Shown here piece by piece: positions 2,051 to 44,424 of a stretch of 44,431 nt of DNA. Each line of letters starts with the position of its first letter. The stretch's first letter is position 1. The notes under the pieces were generated by a model that saw only the letters and a list, made by a program, of their open reading frames with translations, was not told the DNA's origin and did not search any database. The position numbers and the translations under genes are program-made. The stretch comes from a virus: positions 1 to 44,431 of the IMG/VR virus record IMGVR_UViG_3300017989_000179; one strand, written 5' to 3'.

Positions 2051-2713
2051 ATGTCAGATAAAAATGATAAAATTTTTGATGATATTGATAAGTTTTTACA
2101 ACATGGATTATATTTAACAACAAGAACTATATTTATAGAACCAGAAGAAGATTCTGAAGACGGTGATGCTGAAATAACATCACAATCGGCTATTAATACA
2201 ATAAAAAAAATACATATATTAGATAATTATAGAGTTGAAGATTCAGAACATGCCGAACTGACAAATTTATCTCCAGAATCTAAAGATGGTATGATTAATA
2301 TTTTTCTTAATAGTCCTGGTGGTTCTGTTATTGATGGTTTAGCAATTTATGACGCTATAAAAGCTTGTAAAAATTATGTACGTTGTTATGTCTATGGTGC
2401 CGCTGATTCAATTGCTAGCATTATACTTCAAGCAGCTGATGATCGAGTGATCTCAGAAAATAGCAGAATTATGATTCATAATGGTCTTACTCATTATGGT
2501 AGTGATAATGTAAAAAATATCGATTTATGGCAATCTTATACAAAAAAACATGATGAAATTTGTTATGGAATTTATCTAAATAAAATTAAAGAAAAACATC
2601 CAAATTATCGAAAACAGGATCTAAAACGAAAAATGGAAAATGATATGATATTTCATGGACAAGAGGCTATAGATTTTGGTCTTGCTGATAGATTAGTAAA
2701 GCGAGGTGAATAG
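2051..2713 (+). CDS. ClpP-fold serine protease, cytoplasmic
   Basis: A 220-aa ClpP/SppA-superfamily peptidase. NSPGGSV (residues 87-93) is the oxyanion/strand motif. The expected triad is S120 (GAADSIAS), H143 (MIHNG) and D198 (MENDMIF), followed by the usual EAIDFGLADRL end. There is no signal peptide. Phage ClpP-like enzymes usually mature the prohead and sit beside portal and capsid genes; this one lies with early genes on the other strand, so prohead protease is possible but not shown by context. Residues 61-77 (RVEDSEHAELTNLSPES), between the first helix and the NSPGGSV strand, are encoded by DNA identical to a piece of the Hint domain gene near 11.6 kb and look like a recent in-frame insertion. 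AAGGAG precedes the ATG. Confidence 0.9.
   Translation: MSDKNDKIFDDIDKFLQHGLYLTTRTIFIEPEEDSEDGDAEITSQSAINTIKKIHILDNYRVEDSEHAELTNLSPESKDGMINIFLNSPGGSVIDGLAIYDAIKACKNYVRCYVYGAADSIASIILQAADDRVISENSRIMIHNGLTHYGSDNVKNIDLWQSYTKKHDEICYGIYLNKIKEKHPNYRKQDLKRKMENDMIFHGQEAIDFGLADRLVKRGE
2231..2282 (+). repeat. 52-bp perfect inverted duplication, copy 1 (inside the ClpP-like gene)
   Basis: These 52 bases are identical to the reverse complement of 11582-11633. Both copies are read in the same frame in their own genes, giving RVEDSEHAELTNLSPES. In ClpP-fold proteins this position is a variable loop before the NSPGGSV strand, so the Hint gene is the likelier original home. Confidence 0.97.
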
Positions 2714-4016: not shown

Positions 4017-4778
4017 ATGAAGCTATTAGCAGTAATTATTTTTACATTTAGCATGTGTTTTGCCCATGCTAAAAGTATTACTTTAAGAAAAAATAACACA
4101 GTTGTAATGAATGAAGCATTTAATGCATCAAGTGTAGCCAAAGTTCAACAACAACTTTTATTTCTAGCATTGAAGACTAAAAAAGATATATACTTAGTTT
4201 TAAATACTCCTGGGGGATCAGTTTCAGCTGGACAAGAGTTGATTCATTTTGCAAATAATCTACCCAACAAAGTTCACACTATTACTGTTTTTGCTGCCAG
4301 TATGGGTTATCTAACTGCACAACACTTAGGTAAACGTTATATAGTTCCACATGGTGCTTTCATGTCTCATAGAGCTAGTATTTCGGGTTTATCTGGACAA
4401 GTTCCTGGAGAAGCTAATAGTAGGCTCAAATATATTAGTCAACAAGTTAAAGAGCTATCGATTAATACAGCCAAAAGAGTGGGTGTTTCATATAAATCAT
4501 ATATGTCTTCAATTTATAATGAACTTTGGTTAACAGCAAATGAAGCAGTTAGACTAAATCACGCAGATGAAGTTGTTAATGTTAAATGTGATAAATCTCT
4601 TTCAAAAACTCACATTAAAAATATTAGAACAGTTTTTGGAACATATAATGTAGAATTTTCTAATTGTCCAACTATAAGTGGACCAATAAAAATTCATGCC
4701 AAAGGTAGTAAGGTAAGGTTACATATCAAAAAGGCACTCAATAAAATGAATAGAAAAGCATTTGGTTTTACATACTAA
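4017..4778 (+). CDS. secreted ClpP/SppA-fold serine protease
   Basis: A 253-aa protein with a classic signal peptide: basic MK, hydrophobic LLAVIIFTFSMCF, then AHA-K giving a likely signal peptidase I cut after residue 18. The mature part is ClpP/SppA-like: NTPGGSV (63-69), nucleophile S95 in AASMGYL, and H118 in FMSHRA. Where ClpP carries its catalytic Asp, this protein has IYNELWL, so N168 may replace it, as in serine proteases that use a different third residue or a Ser-Lys type dyad. The C-terminus has a Cys pair and a basic tail. It would act in the periplasm or outside the cell. Good AGGAG site; the stop overlaps the next start (TAATG). Unusual in a phage. Confidence 0.85.
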   Translation: MKLLAVIIFTFSMCFAHAKSITLRKNNTVVMNEAFNASSVAKVQQQLLFLALKTKKDIYLVLNTPGGSVSAGQELIHFANNLPNKVHTITVFAASMGYLTAQHLGKRYIVPHGAFMSHRASISGLSGQVPGEANSRLKYISQQVKELSINTAKRVGVSYKSYMSSIYNELWLTANEAVRLNHADEVVNVKCDKSLSKTHIKNIRTVFGTYNVEFSNCPTISGPIKIHAKGSKVRLHIKKALNKMNRKAFGFTY

Positions 4779-11402: not shown

Positions 11403-13721
11403 CTACTCTCCCTGAAGTTTATATTCTTCTTCCAATAACCAATTATTACGATCAATATTTGAATTTAAATTTTCAATTTTTTGATCTTCAGAAATCCATT
11501 CATCATCTGTTTCTTGAAAATCTGCTGCAATAAAATTATTAACAACCATTAAATGATTTTCTGTATTAAGAGGATAAACTATAGATTCTGGAGATAAATT
11601 TGTCAGTTCGGCATGTTCTGAATCTTCAACTCTTAGCCATTTTCCATTTTCAAATACAGCATGATATGAAGTAACAAAAGATCCTTTATATTTATAAATT
11701 TCACCATAAGCAATGGCTTTTCCAGTAGCTGTTACTTTACCACCTAAATATAGTGATTCTCCCAAATCGATATCCTCAATGTTTTTGATTGAACCGTCTT
11801 CCATTTTTACAGAAGTACCTTTCATAAAACAAAAAATACTTTTAACTACATTTTTAGCTTTTTCAGCCGCTCGCTTAGCTTCAGATGCAATATTACTAGC
11901 CACATTAACCGCCTCAGTCATACCACCTGTTGCAAGTCCGGCAATAACTCGATCAATATTTTCATTTCCTGTAATATTACCACCAACTGCACTAGCTATT
12001 TGTTCAGCTGTTTTTATAATATTTTCACCACTTTTGATTGTGTTTCCAACTAAATTAAAAGGATTTACTGTAAAAAGACTTTCTCCAGCAGCACCTAGAT
12101 TTTGTAAATCACTTCCAACTGCTCCTTGTAAATCAGGAGTAAGAGCTTGTTCAGTTCCAGTTAGAGCATCATCTGCTGAACTTAGTAATGCTCCAGTTGG
12201 ACCTCCACTAATTAATAATTGTTCAGGACTTAAACCTTCTTTCATGGTATCAGGTAGATTTAAAATTTCTTGACCAATAGCAGCTTGAGCCCCACCCAGA
12301 TCGACACCTGTATTTTGAGCTAATTTATCTTGAAAGTCACTTACCCCAAAAAGAGTTGCTGCCATAAAAGGATTTGCAGCTAATAAAGCAGTTTGAAATG
12401 CATTAATTGCTTCTTGTTTACCCGTAATTCCTTGTTCAGTAACATTTAAATCACCTCGATTCATTCGATCCAAAACGTCTTTTATAGCCGTTTCAGCATT
12501 GAATCTAAGTGCAGCTTGTGCCGTTGAATCTCCCAAACCTTCTTGTCCTACAAGTTTACTTAAGGCATCAAATCTAGCTCGATCTTCGGCACTAGCAATT
12601 GTTTGTCTATTGAAATTCTTAGGATCAATAACATCTAAATATTGCGAAAAATCAACTTCTTTAGGTACGCCACCTGTTGCTGTCAAAAAACCTTGAAGAG
12701 TTCCTTGAAGTCCTTCAGCAACACCAAGTTCGTCAAATTCTTCTTTGGTTAAAAATTGTCGTTTTTGTAATTTATTTAAAAGTTCTTGTCTTCGATCAGT
12801 TAATTTTTGAAGCTCAGTAGCGGCTTGTTGATCTAATTCTTGTCCCAAAGTTGTTCTAGCACCTTGCTCACCTAAAATACTTTGAGCAGCTTCACCCTCT
12901 CGACCAGTAAATTCAGACACATCCTTTTTTAATCCATAAACATCTTGAATTGCTTTTTTACGAGCTTGAGTTATACTATCAGCTAAACCACCAAGTTGTT
13001 GTTGAGTTCCTTGAACCATTTGTTGTGTAGCAGTTGGATCAGCACTTAAAATCAAAGAATCAACTGCCCTTTGACCTCTTGTATATGGTCTTCCACGTCC
13101 AGAAAATGTTTGTCTTAATAATTCTTCTCTTCCTTGTGCTCGACCAGCTTGACTAGATAATCTTTCTAGTGCTTTAGCTCTTGATCTTTGTTGAAGTAGA
13201 TCTACTGGTTGGGCAACATCAAATTGAGAACCGTTAGTAATTAATCCTTGAAATCTTTGAAAATCTTCATCAGATAACTCTCCAGAACCAGCCTTTTGAA
13301 TAGCTTCTTGAGTAAATTCGCGAGATTCTTGAAGACGACTTTGAGTTTGATCTAGATTTTGTTGAAGTTTATCTTGTTGTTTTTGAATTTGATTTTTTAT
13401 ATCTTGAGCTTGTTGTCCTACTTTTCCCGTAACAGCTCCAGAAATTCTTTCAGCAGCTGGTTTATTTGCACTGATATATTTACGAATATCAGTAAACATT
13501 CCCGAACCTTTTTGTTTACGTGTTCCTGTGGCAGGAGTTGATTGTGGAGCTACTTGGGAACCAATTTGAGGTTGACCTGCACTAATAGATACAGGTGTAC
13601 CTTGTCCCACTTGTTGTTCTTGATCTTCTTGGGATTGTTGTTGATTCAATTGGTCTTGTGTGGCAAGAGTGTTCATTCCAACTTCTTGTGAACCCTCTTC
13701 CTCCTCAGGTATAAATGCCAT
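11403..13721 (-). CDS. large virion protein with C-terminal Hint (intein-like) domain
   Basis: A 772-aa protein. Residues 1-75 are Gln-rich and probably disordered; 75-300 are helical with many Gln/Arg/Glu; 300-620 are mixed with Ala/Gly-rich helices. From C631 (FCFMKGTSV) to the end is a Hint fold: MEDGSIKNIEDIDLGE (block A), FVTSYHAVFENGKW (block B with the conserved His), VYPLNTENHLMVVN and an acidic tail (DFQETDDEW). There is no C-terminal His-Asn plus nucleophile, so it should self-cleave or cross-link rather than splice. The block at 11582-11633 is duplicated in the ClpP-like gene. A GGAG site lies 6 nt before the ATG, and a phage promoter at 13739-13757 is just upstream. Likely an ejection or tail-core protein. 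Confidence 0.72.
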   Translation of the reverse strand: MAFIPEEEEGSQEVGMNTLATQDQLNQQQSQEDQEQQVGQGTPVSISAGQPQIGSQVAPQSTPATGTRKQKGSGMFTDIRKYISANKPAAERISGAVTGKVGQQAQDIKNQIQKQQDKLQQNLDQTQSRLQESREFTQEAIQKAGSGELSDEDFQRFQGLITNGSQFDVAQPVDLLQQRSRAKALERLSSQAGRAQGREELLRQTFSGRGRPYTRGQRAVDSLILSADPTATQQMVQGTQQQLGGLADSITQARKKAIQDVYGLKKDVSEFTGREGEAAQSILGEQGARTTLGQELDQQAATELQKLTDRRQELLNKLQKRQFLTKEEFDELGVAEGLQGTLQGFLTATGGVPKEVDFSQYLDVIDPKNFNRQTIASAEDRARFDALSKLVGQEGLGDSTAQAALRFNAETAIKDVLDRMNRGDLNVTEQGITGKQEAINAFQTALLAANPFMAATLFGVSDFQDKLAQNTGVDLGGAQAAIGQEILNLPDTMKEGLSPEQLLISGGPTGALLSSADDALTGTEQALTPDLQGAVGSDLQNLGAAGESLFTVNPFNLVGNTIKSGENIIKTAEQIASAVGGNITGNENIDRVIAGLATGGMTEAVNVASNIASEAKRAAEKAKNVVKSIFCFMKGTSVKMEDGSIKNIEDIDLGESLYLGGKVTATGKAIAYGEIYKYKGSFVTSYHAVFENGKWLRVEDSEHAELTNLSPESIVYPLNTENHLMVVNNFIAADFQETDDEWISEDQKIENLNSNIDRNNWLLEEEYKLQGE
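11582..11633 (-). repeat. 52-bp perfect inverted duplication, copy 2 (inside the Hint domain)
   Basis: Reverse complement of 2231-2282 with no mismatch. In this gene the encoded RVEDSEHAELTNLSPES follows ENGKWL and precedes IVYPLNTENH, which fits the Hint pattern, so this is the probable source copy. Confidence 0.97.
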
Positions 13722-35854: not shown

Positions 35855-38800
35855 TTATTGTCCCTTAAATGGTAATCCAGTTGCAGGATCTATCGGTGGT
35901 TGAGCTGGTTCTGGAATAGAACCCTGAACCTGCGTACTTTCTGCAATTGGATTTTGAGTAACATTTGACATAGGTTGTAAAGATTGATTTGGTTGTTCAG
36001 GTTGTCCACTTTGAGGACCAATAGGTGTTCCTCCTGGAGGACTCAAAGGTTGTTCACCAATCAATGCTAGTAAATTTGGATCTGTTTGTTGTAATAAAAG
36101 TATATGCTCCTGTATATGAGATAACACTCTTTTTGTTAGTTCAGCATCCATTCTAAGATCAGGATCGGCAAGTACATTCATATGTTCACGAATATGCAGA
36201 GAATGTTTATCTACAGCAGTTGCCACAACATCAGTCTCGCCATCGGCTAATCTTTCATTTTCAGCTCGAATCAATAATGCTTGATTATTAGCACCTTCTG
36301 TCATTGATTCTAGTCTTCCCGAATTAATAACACTAAAATATTGTTCAGGATTAGTTACAACACCCATTTGAATTAAATTATCTGCCATCTGCACTCGACC
36401 AGCTGTAGTATTATGTGTTACAGAAAAATCACCAAGAAGAAAATGGGGCTCTTCTTTGAGTGTAAATCCATAATAAGTTCCCATACCAATTGAATTAACA
36501 TTAATAGCATAGTTATTCCAATTTTTTATTTTATCTTTTTTCTTAACTTGTTTTCTTGGTAATCTAGTTGGTATATCCCAAGTATTTCCACCAATATTAA
36601 GTTTATAGATATTAGCTTCTTTATCATTAAACTCTCTTTCAACTAGTTTTTTAGTAACTCTAAATCCCAAAGATTTAGCTAAATATTCAACTTGATCTAT
36701 GAGTTTTTTACTTTTTTGAGTAAAAACAAAAGTATTATCAACCAAACTTCCATCAGTGTCTATTAAACCAGCAAGTAGTTCTAATCTAGTTTTTCTATCA
36801 TTTTTTAGATAAATTTCTGGAATATGTTTATTTCCAATAATTTCCATAGATCTAAATTCATTCATTAATGGATTTCTATCATGTCCACCACTAGCTTGTC
36901 CTGAGGTAATAAAATATGTATTAGATTGATTTTTAGTTTCTTGTTTTCTAATTTGCATTCCAATACTAAATGCATAATTTGACCATTCAAGATAAATCTC
37001 ATCATCCATTGTTGTCAAAGCTGTTGTTTCTGAAGTTCCATCTCCCAACCAGGCTCCTAAAATATATGCAGGAACTTGTGTTTCTTTTTGTTCAAATTCC
37101 ACACTAGTTGTAAATCCTTGGAGTAATCTTCTGTGTCTTTCTGGTAATTCTAAGTATTCTCCAACAGATAGATCTAAAATGTCTCCTTTTTTTACATTAT
37201 ATCGATCATCATCCGAACAATATCTTAATGTTAAAATGTGACTTTTATTACAAGTATACTTTATATTACGATTAGCACATTTAGAAGTAATATCAAACAT
37301 TTCCTCTCTACCAGAATTCACATTTTCAACAGTTCTTGGTTTAGAATCTGGTCCCATTACTTTTTCACCAATTTTAATATCTTGAACCATCTTTATAGAT
37401 CCATCATACATTAATACTGGCGTGTCTTTAGCTAAACATTGCGCTAACGAATTACCTACATCCACAACAACTCGATTAATTGTATGAATATCTTTTGCTG
37501 AAAATTCCTGCATTTTTGTTTTATTTGATTTTCCTGCAATAGCAGCAATTCTTGGAACTTTAGCAAAATCTTGTAAAAGCTCAACAAGTCCTGTTCCAAT
37601 ATTTTCAATCATTGTTACATAAGATTGTTGTAATCCCGACATAAATTGTAATGCTTGAGATTGAACTAGCGCCAAAGCTGTTCCTGATTTTAACGAACTT
37701 TCTGGATTTCCTCTAGCAACTGAGTTTACTCCTGAAATTGTTTCCATATCACGAACAAGCATTTGTAAAAATTGATAAGTTTCTGGTGCAGTTCTTGTAA
37801 GTTGTAGTGCTTCTGGACGACCATCTGCCCCACCAGCAACTCTTGCGTTGTATTCAATAAAATTAAGTCCTTCTTCTACTTGATTTATGCGAATATCATT
37901 ACCTCTAGGACTCAGAATACTTTGAACACCGAATGCATTATTATTAGTTAAGATTGTTGAATATAAACTATTAACAGCATCTTGCATTGGCATTAAATCA
38001 AACATTGGAGTATAACCATATGGCGTTCCTAAATAATGACTTGGCATAATTGGATAAACTGGAAGACTTCTATATGGCATAATTGTATCCATTAGAATTG
38101 TATCTTCATCTAAGTAAAGTAAATATCGACCTTCTGGTAGACTTTCTGTTCTTTTATGATAAAACTCATAAACAGGAACATCAACAGTTTCATCAAGTGC
38201 AGTAAGGGACATTCGATAGTAATAATTATCACTTTTTGTTCTTATTTTTAAAATTTCTTCTCTAAGTTCTGGATATTTAGCAATAAGATCGTATTTATTT
38301 TTAAACGATCTACATAATACCCAATCATGATCCATTGGAGATTCTTTAGTGCTATCAAAAACAACATCAAATGGTGATAAATTTGTAAACTCTACATCTC
38401 CCTCATAAACAGGTGAAGGACTGAGTTTATTTCCTTGTTCATCAATTGGTTCACCTTTGTCATTATAATCATACAATTTATCCTCAGAAGGTTCTATATA
38501 ATCATATATTTTACCCGATGTTGCATTCCACTCCATTTTTACATATCCAGAACCTAAAACAATAGCATATTCAACTGCCGTTTTAAGAAATGTTTCCATC
38601 TTTTTTTCTCTAAGATAATACTCTAATAAGCCATTCGCTAAAGTGGTTTGAACTTGAGATTTATAGTCAGTATTAATAGAACGAGCTTGAAAACTAGGAC
38701 GACTAGATGTAATCATAGTATGCATATGCCTTGCTATATTTCTATAGTGATTAACTGCCATATTTGCAAGTTCTCCCGATTCTCCGCCAAAATTAATTGA

Positions 38801-39001
38801 GTGTGAATCAGTATAACTAGATGAATAATAAGAACCGTGATAAGCTTCCCAACTTTTAGTTAGTTTATCAAGATATCTATTAGAATTAAGTAAATTAAAC
38901 CAATAGTTACTTTTTTTCATTAGATAATCTACACATTTATCAGATTTATCTGCTGCAAAATAAGTATCACCACTTTGAGAAGGTCGATTGTAAATTGACA
39001 T
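35855..39001 (-). CDS. portal protein interrupted by a 343-aa intein
   Basis: A 1048-aa precursor; extein about 705 aa. The extein looks like a podovirus portal: MTDKLTK-like N-terminal helices (YLMKKSNYWFNLLNSNRYLD, KLTKSWEAYHGSYYSS), MDHDWVLCRSFKNKYDLIAK, PYRSLPVYPIMPSHYLGTPY, GYTPMFDLMPMQDAVNSLYS and MLVRDMETISGVNSVARGN. The C-terminal 80 residues are Pro/Gln/Ser-rich. The intein runs from C522 (AQ-CLAKDTPVL) to N864 (VTHN-TTAGRV), so splicing joins AQ to TTAGRVQMADNLIQMG. Portal forms the DNA entry ring. AGGA near the ATG. Confidence 0.9.
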   Translation of the reverse strand: MSIYNRPSQSGDTYFAADKSDKCVDYLMKKSNYWFNLLNSNRYLDKLTKSWEAYHGSYYSSSYTDSHSINFGGESGELANMAVNHYRNIARHMHTMITSSRPSFQARSINTDYKSQVQTTLANGLLEYYLREKKMETFLKTAVEYAIVLGSGYVKMEWNATSGKIYDYIEPSEDKLYDYNDKGEPIDEQGNKLSPSPVYEGDVEFTNLSPFDVVFDSTKESPMDHDWVLCRSFKNKYDLIAKYPELREEILKIRTKSDNYYYRMSLTALDETVDVPVYEFYHKRTESLPEGRYLLYLDEDTILMDTIMPYRSLPVYPIMPSHYLGTPYGYTPMFDLMPMQDAVNSLYSTILTNNNAFGVQSILSPRGNDIRINQVEEGLNFIEYNARVAGGADGRPEALQLTRTAPETYQFLQMLVRDMETISGVNSVARGNPESSLKSGTALALVQSQALQFMSGLQQSYVTMIENIGTGLVELLQDFAKVPRIAAIAGKSNKTKMQEFSAKDIHTINRVVVDVGNSLAQCLAKDTPVLMYDGSIKMVQDIKIGEKVMGPDSKPRTVENVNSGREEMFDITSKCANRNIKYTCNKSHILTLRYCSDDDRYNVKKGDILDLSVGEYLELPERHRRLLQGFTTSVEFEQKETQVPAYILGAWLGDGTSETTALTTMDDEIYLEWSNYAFSIGMQIRKQETKNQSNTYFITSGQASGGHDRNPLMNEFRSMEIIGNKHIPEIYLKNDRKTRLELLAGLIDTDGSLVDNTFVFTQKSKKLIDQVEYLAKSLGFRVTKKLVEREFNDKEANIYKLNIGGNTWDIPTRLPRKQVKKKDKIKNWNNYAINVNSIGMGTYYGFTLKEEPHFLLGDFSVTHNTTAGRVQMADNLIQMGVVTNPEQYFSVINSGRLESMTEGANNQALLIRAENERLADGETDVVATAVDKHSLHIREHMNVLADPDLRMDAELTKRVLSHIQEHILLLQQTDPNLLALIGEQPLSPPGGTPIGPQSGQPEQPNQSLQPMSNVTQNPIAESTQVQGSIPEPAQPPIDPATGLPFKGQ
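36410..37438 (-). other. intein with LAGLIDADG homing endonuclease, in the portal gene
   Basis: 343 codons from the Cys codon at 37438-37436 to the Asn codon at 36412-36410. Block A CLAKDTPVLMYDGSIKMVQD; block B NIKYTCNKSHILTL with T and H; homing endonuclease motifs YILGAWLGDGTS and LELLAGLIDTDGSL; block F/G YGFTLKEEPHFLLGDFSVTH then HN, with Thr as the +1 residue. All splice residues are intact, so it should splice. Confidence 0.94.
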
Positions 39002-41315: not shown

Positions 41316-41344
41316 TTGACATGACGCACCGTTCTTGGTATAAT
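41316..41344 (+). promoter_or_regulatory. perfect extended -10 sigma70 promoter
   Basis: TTGACA at 41316-41321, exactly 17 bp, then TATAAT at 41339-41344, with TGG immediately before it (TGnTATAAT). It is a full consensus, very strong host-type promoter pointing into the small accessory ORFs. It probably drives the earliest transcription after DNA entry. A TAACAACTA core lies 30 bp downstream on the same strand (41374-41382). Confidence 0.9.
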
Positions 41345-41588: not shown

Positions 41589-41645
41589 ATGAGATATACT
41601 GAAAACAACCATTGTATCTGTCATAGGATTTGTCATGAAACATGA
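41589..41645 (+). CDS. candidate 18-aa Cys/His-rich leader peptide
   Basis: MRYTENNHCICHRICHET, with a strong AGAGGAG site 8-9 nt before the ATG. It ends by overlapping the ATG of the next ORF by 11 bp. Three Cys and three His in 18 residues are unusual. It could be a leader that couples translation or a metal-binding peptide; it could also be a chance ORF. AGTGACAC occurs twice just upstream (41549 and 41577). Confidence 0.35.
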   Translation: MRYTENNHCICHRICHET

Positions 41646-41961
41646 TGCATTAATTGAATTAAAATTAATCATAAAAGAAACTGATATTAAAGTTCGCGAA
41701 GCTTTAGTTGAAGCTTGGGAAGAAAAGTGGATCTATTATACTAAAAATACTCAGTATGTTATTAATAGATCTGTATTAAATTCTGAAGAAATAGATTTTG
41801 TTTGGTATAAAGTTTCTCAAATGTGTGCTGAAGATATGATGGATAACAATGTTACTTTAAATAAAAGTACTAATAATTCATTTAGTTGCGAAACTTGGGC
41901 ACTTAGGAGTCCTTATGCAAAACTCGAAAAGAATACAAAATATTCTAAAAAAATTGGATAA
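41635..41961 (+). CDS. early accessory protein, 108 aa
   Basis: Mainly helical N-terminal part (LIELKLIIKETDIKVREALV, EAWEEKWIYYTKNTQ), then a middle with NSEEIDFVWYKVSQMCAEDM and a polar tail with one Cys. AGGA seven bases before the ATG. It overlaps the next ORF by 47 bp. Not recognised; typical of host-takeover proteins by size and place only. Confidence 0.6.
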   Translation: MKHDALIELKLIIKETDIKVREALVEAWEEKWIYYTKNTQYVINRSVLNSEEIDFVWYKVSQMCAEDMMDNNVTLNKSTNNSFSCETWALRSPYAKLEKNTKYSKKIG

Positions 41962-42136
41962 ATTAGAAGAAATGTTAAGTTTTTATATGAATGGAAATAC
42001 TGAATTTAAACAAGATCTTGTAGAAATTCGAAGTCTTATAGATGAACTTTCTCTTGAAAAAAAAGAAGATCATATAAGATTGGCAAAGAAATTGAAAAAT
42101 GTTTGGAAGATTAATACAAAAAATCAAGAATCTTAA
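41915..42136 (+). CDS. early coiled-coil protein, 73 aa
   Basis: A helical protein with heptad-like pattern (LKKLDKLEEMLSFYMNGN, VEIRSLIDELSLEKKE). AGGAG five bases upstream of the ATG. Its end, KNVWKINTKNQES, may be a degenerate relative of the LWKxxN tag (VWK-x-N with one residue fewer). Not recognised. Confidence 0.58.
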   Translation: MQNSKRIQNILKKLDKLEEMLSFYMNGNTEFKQDLVEIRSLIDELSLEKKEDHIRLAKKLKNVWKINTKNQES

Positions 42137-42202
42137 AACCTTTTGTTTTTTTGGTTTTCATAGTTTTTATAAGAAAAAACATATATTTATATGTAAAAGA
42201 TG

Positions 42203-42211
42203 TGGTAAAAT
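42203..42211 (+). promoter_or_regulatory. extended -10 element for a leaderless mRNA
   Basis: TGG then TAAAAT, with six bases between the hexamer and the ATG at 42218, so the start codon would sit at the transcript start. No clear -35 and no Shine-Dalgarno are visible. Confidence 0.45.
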
Positions 42212-42217
42212 AGTAAA

Positions 42218-42493
42218 ATGAAAAAAGATGGAATATATGAACATATAAGAAAAACTCTTGTAAAAAATGATGGGGATATACTAAATCCTATAACTTCCGA
42301 TATGTTTTCAGTTGAAGACATTACTAAAATTCAAAAACACAGAAGCGATCCACAGTTGATTTTTATACACTTTCGAGGTATAAATGGTAGTATTCCTTTG
42401 AGATTTTTTGATGAAGAGTCTCAAGAAATTATTAAAAACTTTATAAAATCAAGAAGTAGTAAACTTTGGAATGCAGTCAATGATGAATTTTAA
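42218..42493 (+). CDS. tagged accessory protein 1, 91 aa
   Basis: N-terminal helix and mixed middle (MFSVEDITKIQKHRSDPQLI, FIHFRGINGSIPLRFFDEES), then the shared C-terminal tag SRSSKLWNAVNDEF. The IHFRGINGSIPLRFFD strands suggest a small alpha/beta fold. The end overlaps the next ORF. No Shine-Dalgarno; -10 placement predicts a leaderless message. Family not recognised. Confidence 0.6.
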   Translation: MKKDGIYEHIRKTLVKNDGDILNPITSDMFSVEDITKIQKHRSDPQLIFIHFRGINGSIPLRFFDEESQEIIKNFIKSRSSKLWNAVNDEF

Positions 42494-42716
42494 ATTTAAA
42501 GAGTTAGATACTCTTGTAATTTTAGATAGATATTTACGAGAAACTGCACCAGTGGGAAGGAATAGACTTCAAATAAAAGCAATTAGACGTGATGGTTGGG
42601 TAGATATTAAATATGAAGACGGTACCCGAGATTCTTTAACTTATGGATTATTAGAAACACACTGGGGATATTCTCCTGGACAAAACACTAAATTGTGGAA
42701 ATTATTAAATGAGTAA
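42480..42716 (+). CDS. tagged accessory protein 2, SH3/Tudor-like, 78 aa
   Basis: Beta-barrel-like body (RLQIKAIRRDGWVDIKYEDG, TRDSLTYGLLETHW) resembling SH3/Tudor-type domains with IKYEDGT, followed by the tag NTKLWKLLNE. I prefer an ATG at 42480 (or 42483), nine to twelve bases after TTTGGA inside the upstream tag, over the ATG at 42471. The stop region overlaps the next ATG. Substrate unknown. Confidence 0.6.
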   Translation: MMNFKFKELDTLVILDRYLRETAPVGRNRLQIKAIRRDGWVDIKYEDGTRDSLTYGLLETHWGYSPGQNTKLWKLLNE

Positions 42717-42993
42717 TACTATATTTGAATTAGATACAATTATTCGTCATTTAAAAACAATATATCCAACACTTACAATAAGAACTGATTTATATCCATT
42801 TGATGGTTGTGTTTTTGGTTTTAATAATCAAGAATTAGAAATATCACGTAATTATATATTTTCAACAAATCCTTTAGAAATTGGATATGTAGTTGAAAAA
42901 TTCTGTAAGTGTGGAAAAAAACAAGCTCAACATGAGATGAAAAAAATAGAAGCTCAAAAACAGCCTTTATATAAAGTCTTAAACGAAATATAG
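42709..42993 (+). CDS. tagged accessory protein 3, 94 aa
   Basis: Body with IIRHLKTIYPTLTIRTDLYP, FNNQELEISRNYIFSTNPLE and a Cys pair FCKCGKKQAQHEMKK, which could be a zinc loop, then the tag QKQPLYKVLNEI. The ATG overlaps the previous tag DNA (TTAAATGAG), so initiation occurs within it. Not recognised. Confidence 0.6.
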   Translation: MSNTIFELDTIIRHLKTIYPTLTIRTDLYPFDGCVFGFNNQELEISRNYIFSTNPLEIGYVVEKFCKCGKKQAQHEMKKIEAQKQPLYKVLNEI

Positions 42994-43046
42994 AAGACAC
43001 TCTGAGGCTTTCAAAAATAGCCCTAGAATTGTTTCTAATAGAAAAC

Positions 43047-43361
43047 ATGAGTATAGGTATGGGTAAGCATTATAAACAGATAGAAAAAGAACTACAAGAG
43101 CTTAGAGACAGTAGTAAAGTTTCTCAAAAAATAAGAAGAAATGAATTAAAAGACAAGATATTAACTAGTTTTAAAAATTTACGAATTGTAAGTGATGAAA
43201 AAAACTTAGAAAAAGCTGAAAGATTTATCTTAAGTAATTTTCAATATGAAAGAAGTTTGAGTTTTAATCAACTATTTATTCAAGTGTTTATTGAAAAATA
43301 TATAGATCATTTTGATTTAATTATAGAACAAACACCACTTTGGAAAAAAATAAATCATTAA
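43047..43361 (+). CDS. tagged accessory protein 4, 104 aa
   Basis: Helical, charged (YKQIEKELQELRDSSKVSQK, RNELKDKILTSFKNLRIVSD) with the tag EQTPLWKKINH. The track-level start TTG at 43029 was rejected because TCTAAT lies at 43034-43039, seven bases before ATG 43047, predicting a leaderless message. The last 4 bp overlap the convergent tagged ORF. Not recognised. Confidence 0.6.
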   Translation: MSIGMGKHYKQIEKELQELRDSSKVSQKIRRNELKDKILTSFKNLRIVSDEKNLEKAERFILSNFQYERSLSFNQLFIQVFIEKYIDHFDLIIEQTPLWKKINH

Positions 43362-43630
43362 GAATTTAATAATTTCCATAGTTTACTATCATAACCATGC
43401 AATCTAACAACATTACGAAAATCAATTATTTTCCATAAACTTCCATAATTTTCAACATTTAAGTTTCCAATGCCCCAAAAATTATTAGGGTCACTTACAA
43501 CTTTATATCGAACTTCTAAAACTTCTGTATCTAAATTGGGAGCTAAATCAATAACTTCTAATATTTGAACCACATCTTTATCTATTGGATTGTAATAAAA
43601 ACCGGGATATATATCTTTTAATTCTAACAT
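43358..43630 (-). CDS. tagged accessory protein 5, 90 aa, leftward, leaderless
   Basis: Beta-rich body (MLELKDIYPGFYYNPIDKD, TEVLEVRYKVVSDPNNFWGI), an internal tag-like YGSLWKIID near residue 70 and the C-terminal tag YDSKLWKLLNS. ATG 43630 is 7 nt after TATTAT of the leftward promoter, so a leaderless message is expected; an upstream in-frame ATG at 43666 lies inside the -35 of that promoter. Convergent overlap of 4 bp with the previous gene. Not recognised. Confidence 0.62.
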   Translation of the reverse strand: MLELKDIYPGFYYNPIDKDVVQILEVIDLAPNLDTEVLEVRYKVVSDPNNFWGIGNLNVENYGSLWKIIDFRNVVRLHGYDSKLWKLLNS

Positions 43631-43637
43631 CAAAACT

Positions 43638-43666
43638 ATAATATCAAAACATTTGACTCTTTGCAA
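43638..43666 (-). promoter_or_regulatory. leftward sigma70 promoter with extended -10
   Basis: Leftward TTGCAA (43661-43666), 17 bp, TATTAT (43638-43643), preceded by TGA (TGnTATTAT). The start point would be at the ATG at 43630. It overlaps the rightward promoter 43653-43681 on the opposite strand. Confidence 0.65.
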
Positions 43667-43681
43667 ATTTTTCGATATAAT
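43653..43681 (+). promoter_or_regulatory. rightward sigma70 promoter
   Basis: TTGACT (43653-43658), 17 bp, TATAAT (43676-43681). A start point near 43688 means the ATG at 43713, not 43653, starts the next gene. The -35 lies in the spacer of the leftward promoter, so only one polymerase can bind at a time. Confidence 0.78.
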
Positions 43682-43712
43682 TTTTTTAGAAGCTAAATTA
43701 CAAACAAAAATT

Positions 43713-43931
43713 ATGAGAAAACGCTACTACAAACACAAATACAACCAAAGAATAATACAAGTTTGCTCAGTAATGAACGGGATAGTCCGCATAAAACTTG
43801 AAAAAATAGGCTCAGAAAGCATCAAATTTCCATACCTAAGCAACTATAATCTTAAAGAATTCTTTAAATTTTATAAAAAATTCTCAGCTTACGGTACGCC
43901 TTTATGGAAAACTATCAATGATTTTAAATAA
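43713..43931 (+). CDS. tagged accessory protein 6, 72 aa
   Basis: Basic N-terminus (MRKRYYKHKYNQRIIQ), beta strands (VCSVMNGIVRIKLEKIGSES), a helix (NYNLKEFFKFYKKF) and the tag YGTPLWKTINDFK. Start chosen by the promoter at 43653-43681. The tag DNA carries the next gene's ATG. The fold resembles a small barrel plus helix; family not recognised. Confidence 0.62.
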   Translation: MRKRYYKHKYNQRIIQVCSVMNGIVRIKLEKIGSESIKFPYLSNYNLKEFFKFYKKFSAYGTPLWKTINDFK

Positions 43932-44172
43932 AAACCATATTTTTCACGATAGAACTGAGTTTGAATTATACCTTAGACAGTGCTATGAACAAAACTTTGA
44001 TCCTAAAGACCTTCTTTTTGAGGTAAGTCCCGGATTTTTAGATAAGGTAATAGGATGGCAAGACCCCATAGAAGACCGCGTTTACCTAAGTCCACATCTC
44101 GGCTACGGTATTTATAAAGTTACCCTGGCTAGAAAATATCGCTCTAAGTTATATAAATTACTTAATAATTAA
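43918..44172 (+). CDS. tagged accessory protein 7, 84 aa
   Basis: Helical N-terminus (HIFHDRTEFELYLRQCYEQN), middle (DLLFEVSPGFLDKVIGWQDP) with a beta end (DRVYLSPHLGYGIYKVTLAR) and the tag YRSKLYKLLNN. The ATG lies in the upstream tag (CAATGATT) with GGAAAA about ten bases before. G/C content rises at 43980-44140 versus neighbours. Not recognised. Confidence 0.62.
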   Translation: MILNKNHIFHDRTEFELYLRQCYEQNFDPKDLLFEVSPGFLDKVIGWQDPIEDRVYLSPHLGYGIYKVTLARKYRSKLYKLLNN

Positions 44173-44424
44173 CTATTTTATACAAGGGGAACTATAAACC
44201 TTTACTTCCTCTAGAGAATTTAGAAATTCCCGATCTTTTTTAAATTTAAAAATTATTTTTAAAGTATCTTTACCTATTAAAAAAGGAAGAATAGACAGAA
44301 GAGAGGATTCGTTTGTTCCACATTTCAATATTTTGAGAAGAATATGCGAACTATTATCATCTAAACACATAAATAGCATATCTGTATTTTTTATTCTATA
44401 ATATCGGTCTTTTTGTATATTCAT
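44173..44424 (-). CDS. untagged accessory protein at the right edge, 83 aa
   Basis: Beta-rich N-terminal half (DRYYRIKNTDMLFMCLDDNS, SHILLKILKCGTN) similar in outline to the SH3-like proteins nearby, and a hydrophobic-charged C-terminal part (LLSILPFLIGKDTLKIIFKF). It ends VKVYSSPCIK, not the tag. It converges directly on the previous gene (stop codons adjacent). Its promoter would lie outside the window. Confidence 0.58.
   Translation of the reverse strand: MNIQKDRYYRIKNTDMLFMCLDDNSSHILLKILKCGTNESSLLSILPFLIGKDTLKIIFKFKKDREFLNSLEEVKVYSSPCIK

Follow-up and report, generated by a model that had tools for sequence, protein, structure and literature searches.

The 44,431 nt of virus DNA analysed here (IMG/VR virus record IMGVR_UViG_3300017989_000179, hereafter the window) carry, close to their right-hand end, an array of small ORFs that have different bodies and one C-terminal peptide in common, and versions of this peptide close genes spread over the genomes of related phages. 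The reading that we prefer, with a probability of roughly 0.55, is that the peptide is a docking tag that binds one common putative partner, a hub with which it would co-evolve. An earlier note on this DNA had proposed a docking or localisation tag for a common partner, a proposal now well supported by the enrichment of the motif in relatives, by its conservation at the protein level and by a concerted switch of the tag between lineages.

All seven consecutive small ORFs that had been noticed in positions 42218-44172 are present with the endings given for them (Table 1), three of these endings running 1-2 residues beyond the octamer first quoted (KLWNAVNDEF, PLYKVLNEI and PLWKTINDFK). The fuller motif is [S/T]-[P/K]-L-[W/Y]-[K/N]-x-[L/I/V]-N-x(1-3), frequently with x-Y-x before it. 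The pattern [KP]L[WY][KN]x[LIV]N occurs no more than three residues from the stop codon in 7 of the 174 window ORFs that are 40 aa or longer, is found at 0 of 17,318 internal positions of the window and is absent from all 300 residue shuffles; the number of tags expected by chance is nil. The likely starts of four of the ORFs lie inside the longest ORF, that is, at ATG 42480 or 42483 for ORF2, at 43047 or 43059 for ORF4, at 43630 for ORF5 and at 43713 for ORF6.

Table 1. The tag array and its surroundings (positions in the window)
Feature	Positions	Strand	Remarks
Sigma-70 promoter TTGACA-17-TATAAT, extended -10	41316..41344	+	12/12 consensus positions; a sequence match, not a measured promoter; upstream of the cluster
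acc108 (ortholog of p100)	41635..41961	+	untagged helical protein preceding the tag cluster
acc73	41915..42136	+	untagged conserved neighbour; homologs in G037, L021 and L023
40-aa Cys protein (CFFGFH...CKRCGK)	42099..42221	+	similar ORFs, judged by eye, beside the cluster in L023, L021 and G016
Tagged ORF1	42218..42493	+	ends SKLWNAVNDEF
Tagged ORF2	42480..42716	+	ends TKLWKLLNE; longest ORF from 42471
Tagged ORF3	42709..42993	+	Cys-bearing; ends PLYKVLNEI; no start codon overlaps the tag
Tagged ORF4	43047..43361	+	helical-looking body; ends TPLWKKINH; following gene convergent
Tagged ORF5	43358..43630	-	ends SKLWKLLNS; convergent with ORF4, divergent from ORF6
Sigma-70-like promoter TTGACT-17-TATAAT	43653..43681	+	11/12 consensus positions; precedes ORF6
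Tagged ORF6	43713..43931	+	ends TPLWKTINDFK
Tagged ORF7	43918..44172	+	ends SKLYKLLNN; following gene convergent
Tag-like peptide LYKIVNY-stop	44162..44185	-	in another frame at the 3' end of ORF8
ORF8	44173..44424	-	own frame ends SSPCIK, without a tag; between ORF7 and the tagged ORFs of L001

The array runs past the end of the window. A 36,097-base IMG/VR contig (L001), the only sequence recovered by a search for a continuation of the window's genome to the right, overlaps the window at 99.97% identity and supplies two further tagged ORFs on the minus strand (...TPLYNVINT and ...TPLYKTLNT), whose ends read ...KAYGTPLYNVINT and ...KSYKTPLYKTLNT. The intervening ORF8 is a paralog of the tagged ORF at L001:11951-12214 (30% identity over 80 residues, E about 1e-6), and the tag-like peptide that overlaps its 3' end out of frame is identical in both contigs. 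The array thus apparently comprises nine intact tags and one that is out of frame.

The bodies in front of the tag differ, as had been noticed from the letters. When the tags were trimmed off, BLASTP among the ten proteins of the array returned a single homologous pair (E about 1e-6), which rules out whole-protein paralogy in the window for all pairs but that one. None of the ten proteins reached the curated Pfam cut-off or had a significant match in PHROGs. For tagged proteins in general no match exceeded a Pfam cut-off either, and weak matches covered the untagged part of single proteins (DUF6745 at 24.1 bits with a cut-off of 27, and phrog_1987 at 1.5e-6). These results agree with the impression that no described family has this build, and such a tag was not described in the openly licensed literature that was searched. 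Among these phages the tag also closes helical-looking proteins, Cys-bearing proteins in the nearest sister phage, a protein that weakly resembles DUF6745 and contains NQLxNQL repeats, and a GTRALI domain of 143 aa, the Vibrio phage homolog of which has no tag.

Relatives were gathered with a terminase profile, which gave 31 loci, and with a capsid profile, which gave 80 loci on contigs of up to 90 kb. In one of these loci the terminase gene (L003:897-2366) has an apparent in-frame stop around 1338-1340, leaving two ORFs in one frame, and in two others (L095 and L045) the capsid-gene matches are interrupted by roughly 0.5-1.3 kb, which suggests inserted elements. The same scans were run on bacterial genomes in search of a host: the terminase scan gave no match, and the capsid scan gave one contig only (L106), placed in a beta-proteobacterial MAG, possibly through mis-binning.

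Several of these phages stood out in an unbiased comparison, made locus by locus, of the C-terminal 22 residues of small ORFs. A census of the longer contigs with the C-terminal pattern [TSPNC]-x-L-x-x-[EAQ]-[LIM]-x, in which internal positions gave an expectation of 0.12-0.41, found 34 of 161 genes tagged in G004 (0.25 expected; T-P-L-x-x-A-L-L version), 25 of 149 in G006 (0.37 expected; S-S-L-E-x-E-L-L version), 11 of 97 in G005 (0.21 expected) and 13 of 134 in G007 (0.41 expected), as well as 25 of 146 in G011, 21 of 94 in G012 and 9 of 72 in G009, these counts coming from a simple ORF caller, from regular expressions tuned after examples had been seen and from contigs several of which are fragments. 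The pair-similarity test depends less on tuned expressions. One of the G004 matches, which closes a protein of 1,357 aa, is probably due to chance. No tags were found in T4, SPO1 and a Vibrio T5-like phage (50 kb each) or in the untagged relatives CP017838 and G003. The earlier note had counted a lack of enrichment in related phages against a tag, and the census found the motif enriched. The cluster of G017 (loci L212-L216) was dropped from the tagged set, since it is one paralogous family throughout: it consists of 19 copies of a WYLNGxxHRVDGPA-repeat protein, nearly all ending TTLGKLIFNEHFKLE, an ordinary, if striking, paralog expansion. In G031 (loci L220-L223) about ten small proteins end near F-x-x-K-L-E-x-L-I-N-E and a few near F-E-L-V-T-x-I-F-R, possibly further types of tag.

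The nearest sister phage, G037, comes from the same sample as L001 and has nine tagged ORFs at the same locus, after acc108 and acc73 (TKLFKLLE, TPLGRLLQ, TPLWKTLS, TPLFKILE, TKLYKTLE, TPLFKALE, TPLYQVLE, TPLFEMLQ and TPLYKSLE; consensus T-[PK]-L-[FWYG]-K-x-L-[E/Q/S]). Their bodies show no BLASTP relation to those of the window.

In trains of overlapping genes the tag occupies the place where the ribosome-binding site of the next gene is expected, and an origin at the DNA level was therefore tested. The tags of window ORFs 3, 4, 5 and 7 have no start codon there, no start lies within 25 nt of the tag in 8 of 35 cases in G004 and 4 of 25 in G006, and overlap with the next gene is mostly absent in G037; tags that are kept without a downstream start codon cannot be merely ribosome-binding sites. 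At both invariant Leu residues codon choice is typical of the genome (Monte Carlo p 0.10-0.91). In the window and G037 set the first conserved Leu is encoded by every one of the six Leu codons, and one tag position in G006 uses Ser codons of both the AGY and the TCN type, a mixture indicating that no single DNA segment was copied recently to give these ends. The suggestion that the cause is a modular 3' end through which cassettes are exchanged by recombination finds no support in these codons. Moreover, 22 ortholog pairs from two close phages give a pN/pS of 0.064 for the tag but of 0.28 for the body, whereas pS is 0.116 in the tag and 0.086 in the body, meaning that the residues are constrained and the silent sites are free. 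It is the protein that is conserved here rather than the DNA. The outcome that the earlier note had set against its proposal, third positions as strongly conserved as first and second ones, did not occur. On the grounds of codon use, start-less tags and pN/pS together we reject a ribosome-binding-site or recombination origin. In two clades of relatives (the E and A clades defined below) codons -4 and -3 may double as a partial Shine-Dalgarno sequence, and some of the conservation there may be translational.

The tag changes in concert between lineages. Directly in front of the last conserved Leu, the tags of G005, G006, G007, G009 and G010 (the E clade) have Glu (or Gln), whereas those of the clade of G004 and G008 (the A clade) usually have Ala, otherwise Thr, Ser or Val. 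This contrast is seen in about ten orthologous gene families spread over the genome, for instance TELMKALL/SALIKELL, TPLEVALL/TPLEVELL, CPLRKALD/TGLGRELF, TELGRALL/TLLGKELN and SDLLKSLL/TGLLKELE (G004 and its E-clade ortholog), TSLGLALC/TSLGKELF and PSLIKVLL/PSLIKELL (G008 and its E-clade ortholog) and a further A-clade/E-clade pair, YPLLKALS/TPLLLELK. An exception is the A-type tag SSLENALN in G006, within the E clade. The residue after the last hydrophobic position, N in the window and mostly E in the sister G037, is likewise concerted. A single receptor that evolves together with the tag would be expected to bring about such parallel changes in genes that are not linked, and the switching may be regarded as natural evidence for such a receptor.

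Under the docking reading, the tag, in the window's own proteins as elsewhere, is probably a short amphipathic helix of the form [T/S]-x-L-x-[K/x]-x-[L/I], which would be appended to many small, fast-evolving and mostly early proteins of different folds. All tagged proteins would bind one hub in the infected cell, the variable bodies acting on different host targets and the tag delivering each of them to the same machine. Co-evolution of tag and partner would then yield the lineage-specific versions, namely L-[WY]-K-x-[LI]-N in the window, L-[FWY]-K-x-L-E in the sister, and L-x-x-E-L and L-x-x-A-L elsewhere. The promoter matches in Table 1 suggest early expression of the cluster; a weaker minus-strand match (43666-43638, 9 of 12 consensus positions) faces ORF5.

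As to the partner, acc108 is the best phage-encoded candidate, although we would put this identification forward only tentatively. Its profile HMM matches the window, G037, L023 and G004-G012, which are all the phages with the canonical tag for which this region was available, and gave no match in the untagged relatives searched; of the G006 genes that the window and L023 also have and that the untagged relatives lack, it is the sole non-structural one. Its structure model is poor (pLDDT 66), and L021 has a related motif and acc73, with acc108 not found. Co-occurrence of acc108 and the tag may reflect shared ancestry. Moreover, the sequences of the window, G037 and L023 lack the early half of each genome, which leaves acc108 no more than a candidate. 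A host protein is equally possible as the partner.

A close precedent for such a peptide is found in T4, where gp43, gp55 and gp33 carry sliding-clamp-binding C-termini, short hydrophobic/acidic epitopes that are interchangeable (PMC2988020); gp55 ends SPSLDFLYEAND and gp43 ends KASLDFLFG. The present tag is like these epitopes in being a shared hydrophobic/acidic C-terminal peptide on unrelated phage proteins, but it differs in its Leu spacing and in its reach, with three proteins in T4 and 9-35 here. A phage-encoded clamp was rejected as the partner, since no clamp family was found (PF02767 in none of 18 genomes; PF02916 in none of 13 family genomes, the T4 protein being detected); a host clamp is conceivable as the partner.

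A bolder version of the docking reading, which we consider unlikely, is that the tag is a lineage-specific code by which dozens of small adaptors in each genome, every one specific to its target, plug into a phage hub (possibly acc108) or into a host machine, e.g. a protease. If it were true, new anti-host functions could evolve simply by gaining the tag, and the system would be the phage counterpart of the poxviral ankyrin-repeat/F-box adaptors. Those proteins (PRANC) combine varied target-binding bodies with one C-terminal module for one host machine (PMC9414399). The PRANC proteins belong to eukaryotic viruses and have a folded domain with a known partner, whereas the tag is a peptide of 8 residues, and there is no homology between the two. 

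For most of the small proteins that phages make early, neither a function nor a homolog is known, and a shared tag would provide a handle on dozens of them together: one bait peptide could expose the partner, and hence the role of the whole tagged set. The tag could also help to tell genuine small genes from spurious ones in phage dark matter.

The alternative that survives best, although we think it improbable, is that the tag acts as a degron or serves an AAA+ protease as a handle, which would either make the early proteins short-lived or let their bodies deliver host targets to the protease. In line with this, the tags of the E and A clades are flush with the C-terminus, several of these phages encode ClpP-like proteins, and the A-clade endings KALA, KALS and EALL are loosely similar to ssrA-type ends. 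However, the motif is followed by 1-9 further residues in the window and G037, and the related motif of L021 stops 10-40 residues short of the C-terminal end, which means that the terminal carboxylate at which an ssrA-like degron is anchored is not part of the signal. The conserved features are instead internal Leu and aromatic residues. ClpP-like genes are also present in untagged relatives, and on this ground a ClpP-like protease was rejected as the specific partner. A degron, like the packaging signal considered next, would itself be a tag for one common partner.

Next in probability, and again improbable, is packaging into the virion, by which the proteins would enter the procapsid through the tag and be injected with the DNA. 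The capsid targeting sequence of T4 is N-terminal, is removed by the prohead protease and is found on few proteins; the element shared here is C-terminal and is carried by many. Encapsulin cargo peptides, like other sorting signals at the C-terminus, are short and bring unrelated proteins to one shell or machine; no encapsulin or secretion context was identified here. The logic would be that of the T4 internal proteins, which are diverse anti-restriction proteins retaining only a common targeting peptide (PMC3012670). Yet about 34 different cargo proteins seem too many for an 85-kb phage, the tagged genes follow an early-type promoter or are grouped with replication genes and not with late ones, and untagged relatives carry scaffold and capsid genes too.

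Less probable again is that the tag is the last helix of an SH3-like fold, packing on its own barrel in one diverging paralogous family. The AF2 model of an SH3-like tagged protein (pLDDT 79) does place the tag as a C-terminal helix after the last strand; the fold search with this model gave no match at E <= 0.001, and weak small-barrel resemblances only. Many tagged proteins of G004 look SH3-like, which indicates that part of the tagged set is a paralogous family, and the LxRWxLP mini-ORFs of L023 and L112 (see below) may be one family as well. Helical-looking and other bodies end in the tag too, however, the bodies in the window have no detectable homology except for one pair, and switching between E and A in concert across folds is not expected from packing within each protein.

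A DNA-level signal, i.e. a by-product of the next gene's conserved ribosome-binding site or start, or the end of a recombination cassette, has very little chance of being correct: many tagged ORFs do overlap the next start by ATGA, often with AAGG or GGAG in codons -4 and -3, but synonymous sites vary freely, Leu codon use is genome-typical, tags are kept where no start follows (as in most of G037), and Tyr-type tags (TATAAA) have no Shine-Dalgarno sequence, so that this signal is contradicted for the window tag and what doubt is left concerns the E and A clades, and there only some of the signal.

Other features of these genomes may be mentioned. Two phages have, on the minus strand, arrays of roughly 15 very small ORFs (38-66 aa) with the ending L-x-R-W-x-[LIM]-P, and the sites differ: the arrays lie in the early region of L023 (3694-6155) and, in L112 (3754-5883), between the capsid gene and the next structural gene, beside a probable homing endonuclease. 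Three more ORFs of L023 end L-x-I-[YW]-[KQ]-A-L-T, close to the window tag. Two distinct proteins of the ClpP family (PF00574) are encoded in the window (2051-2713 and 4017-4778). A 70-nt segment of the ClpP-like gene (2231-2300) recurs, inverted and 89% identical, at 11564-11633 in the 3' part of a gene for a 772-aa product that has a Hint-like start, both copies encoding VEDSEHAELTNLSPES. The P22-like portal gene of the window (35855-39001, minus strand) contains an intein with a LAGLIDADG homing endonuclease domain, whereas the portal gene of L003 is free of an intein.
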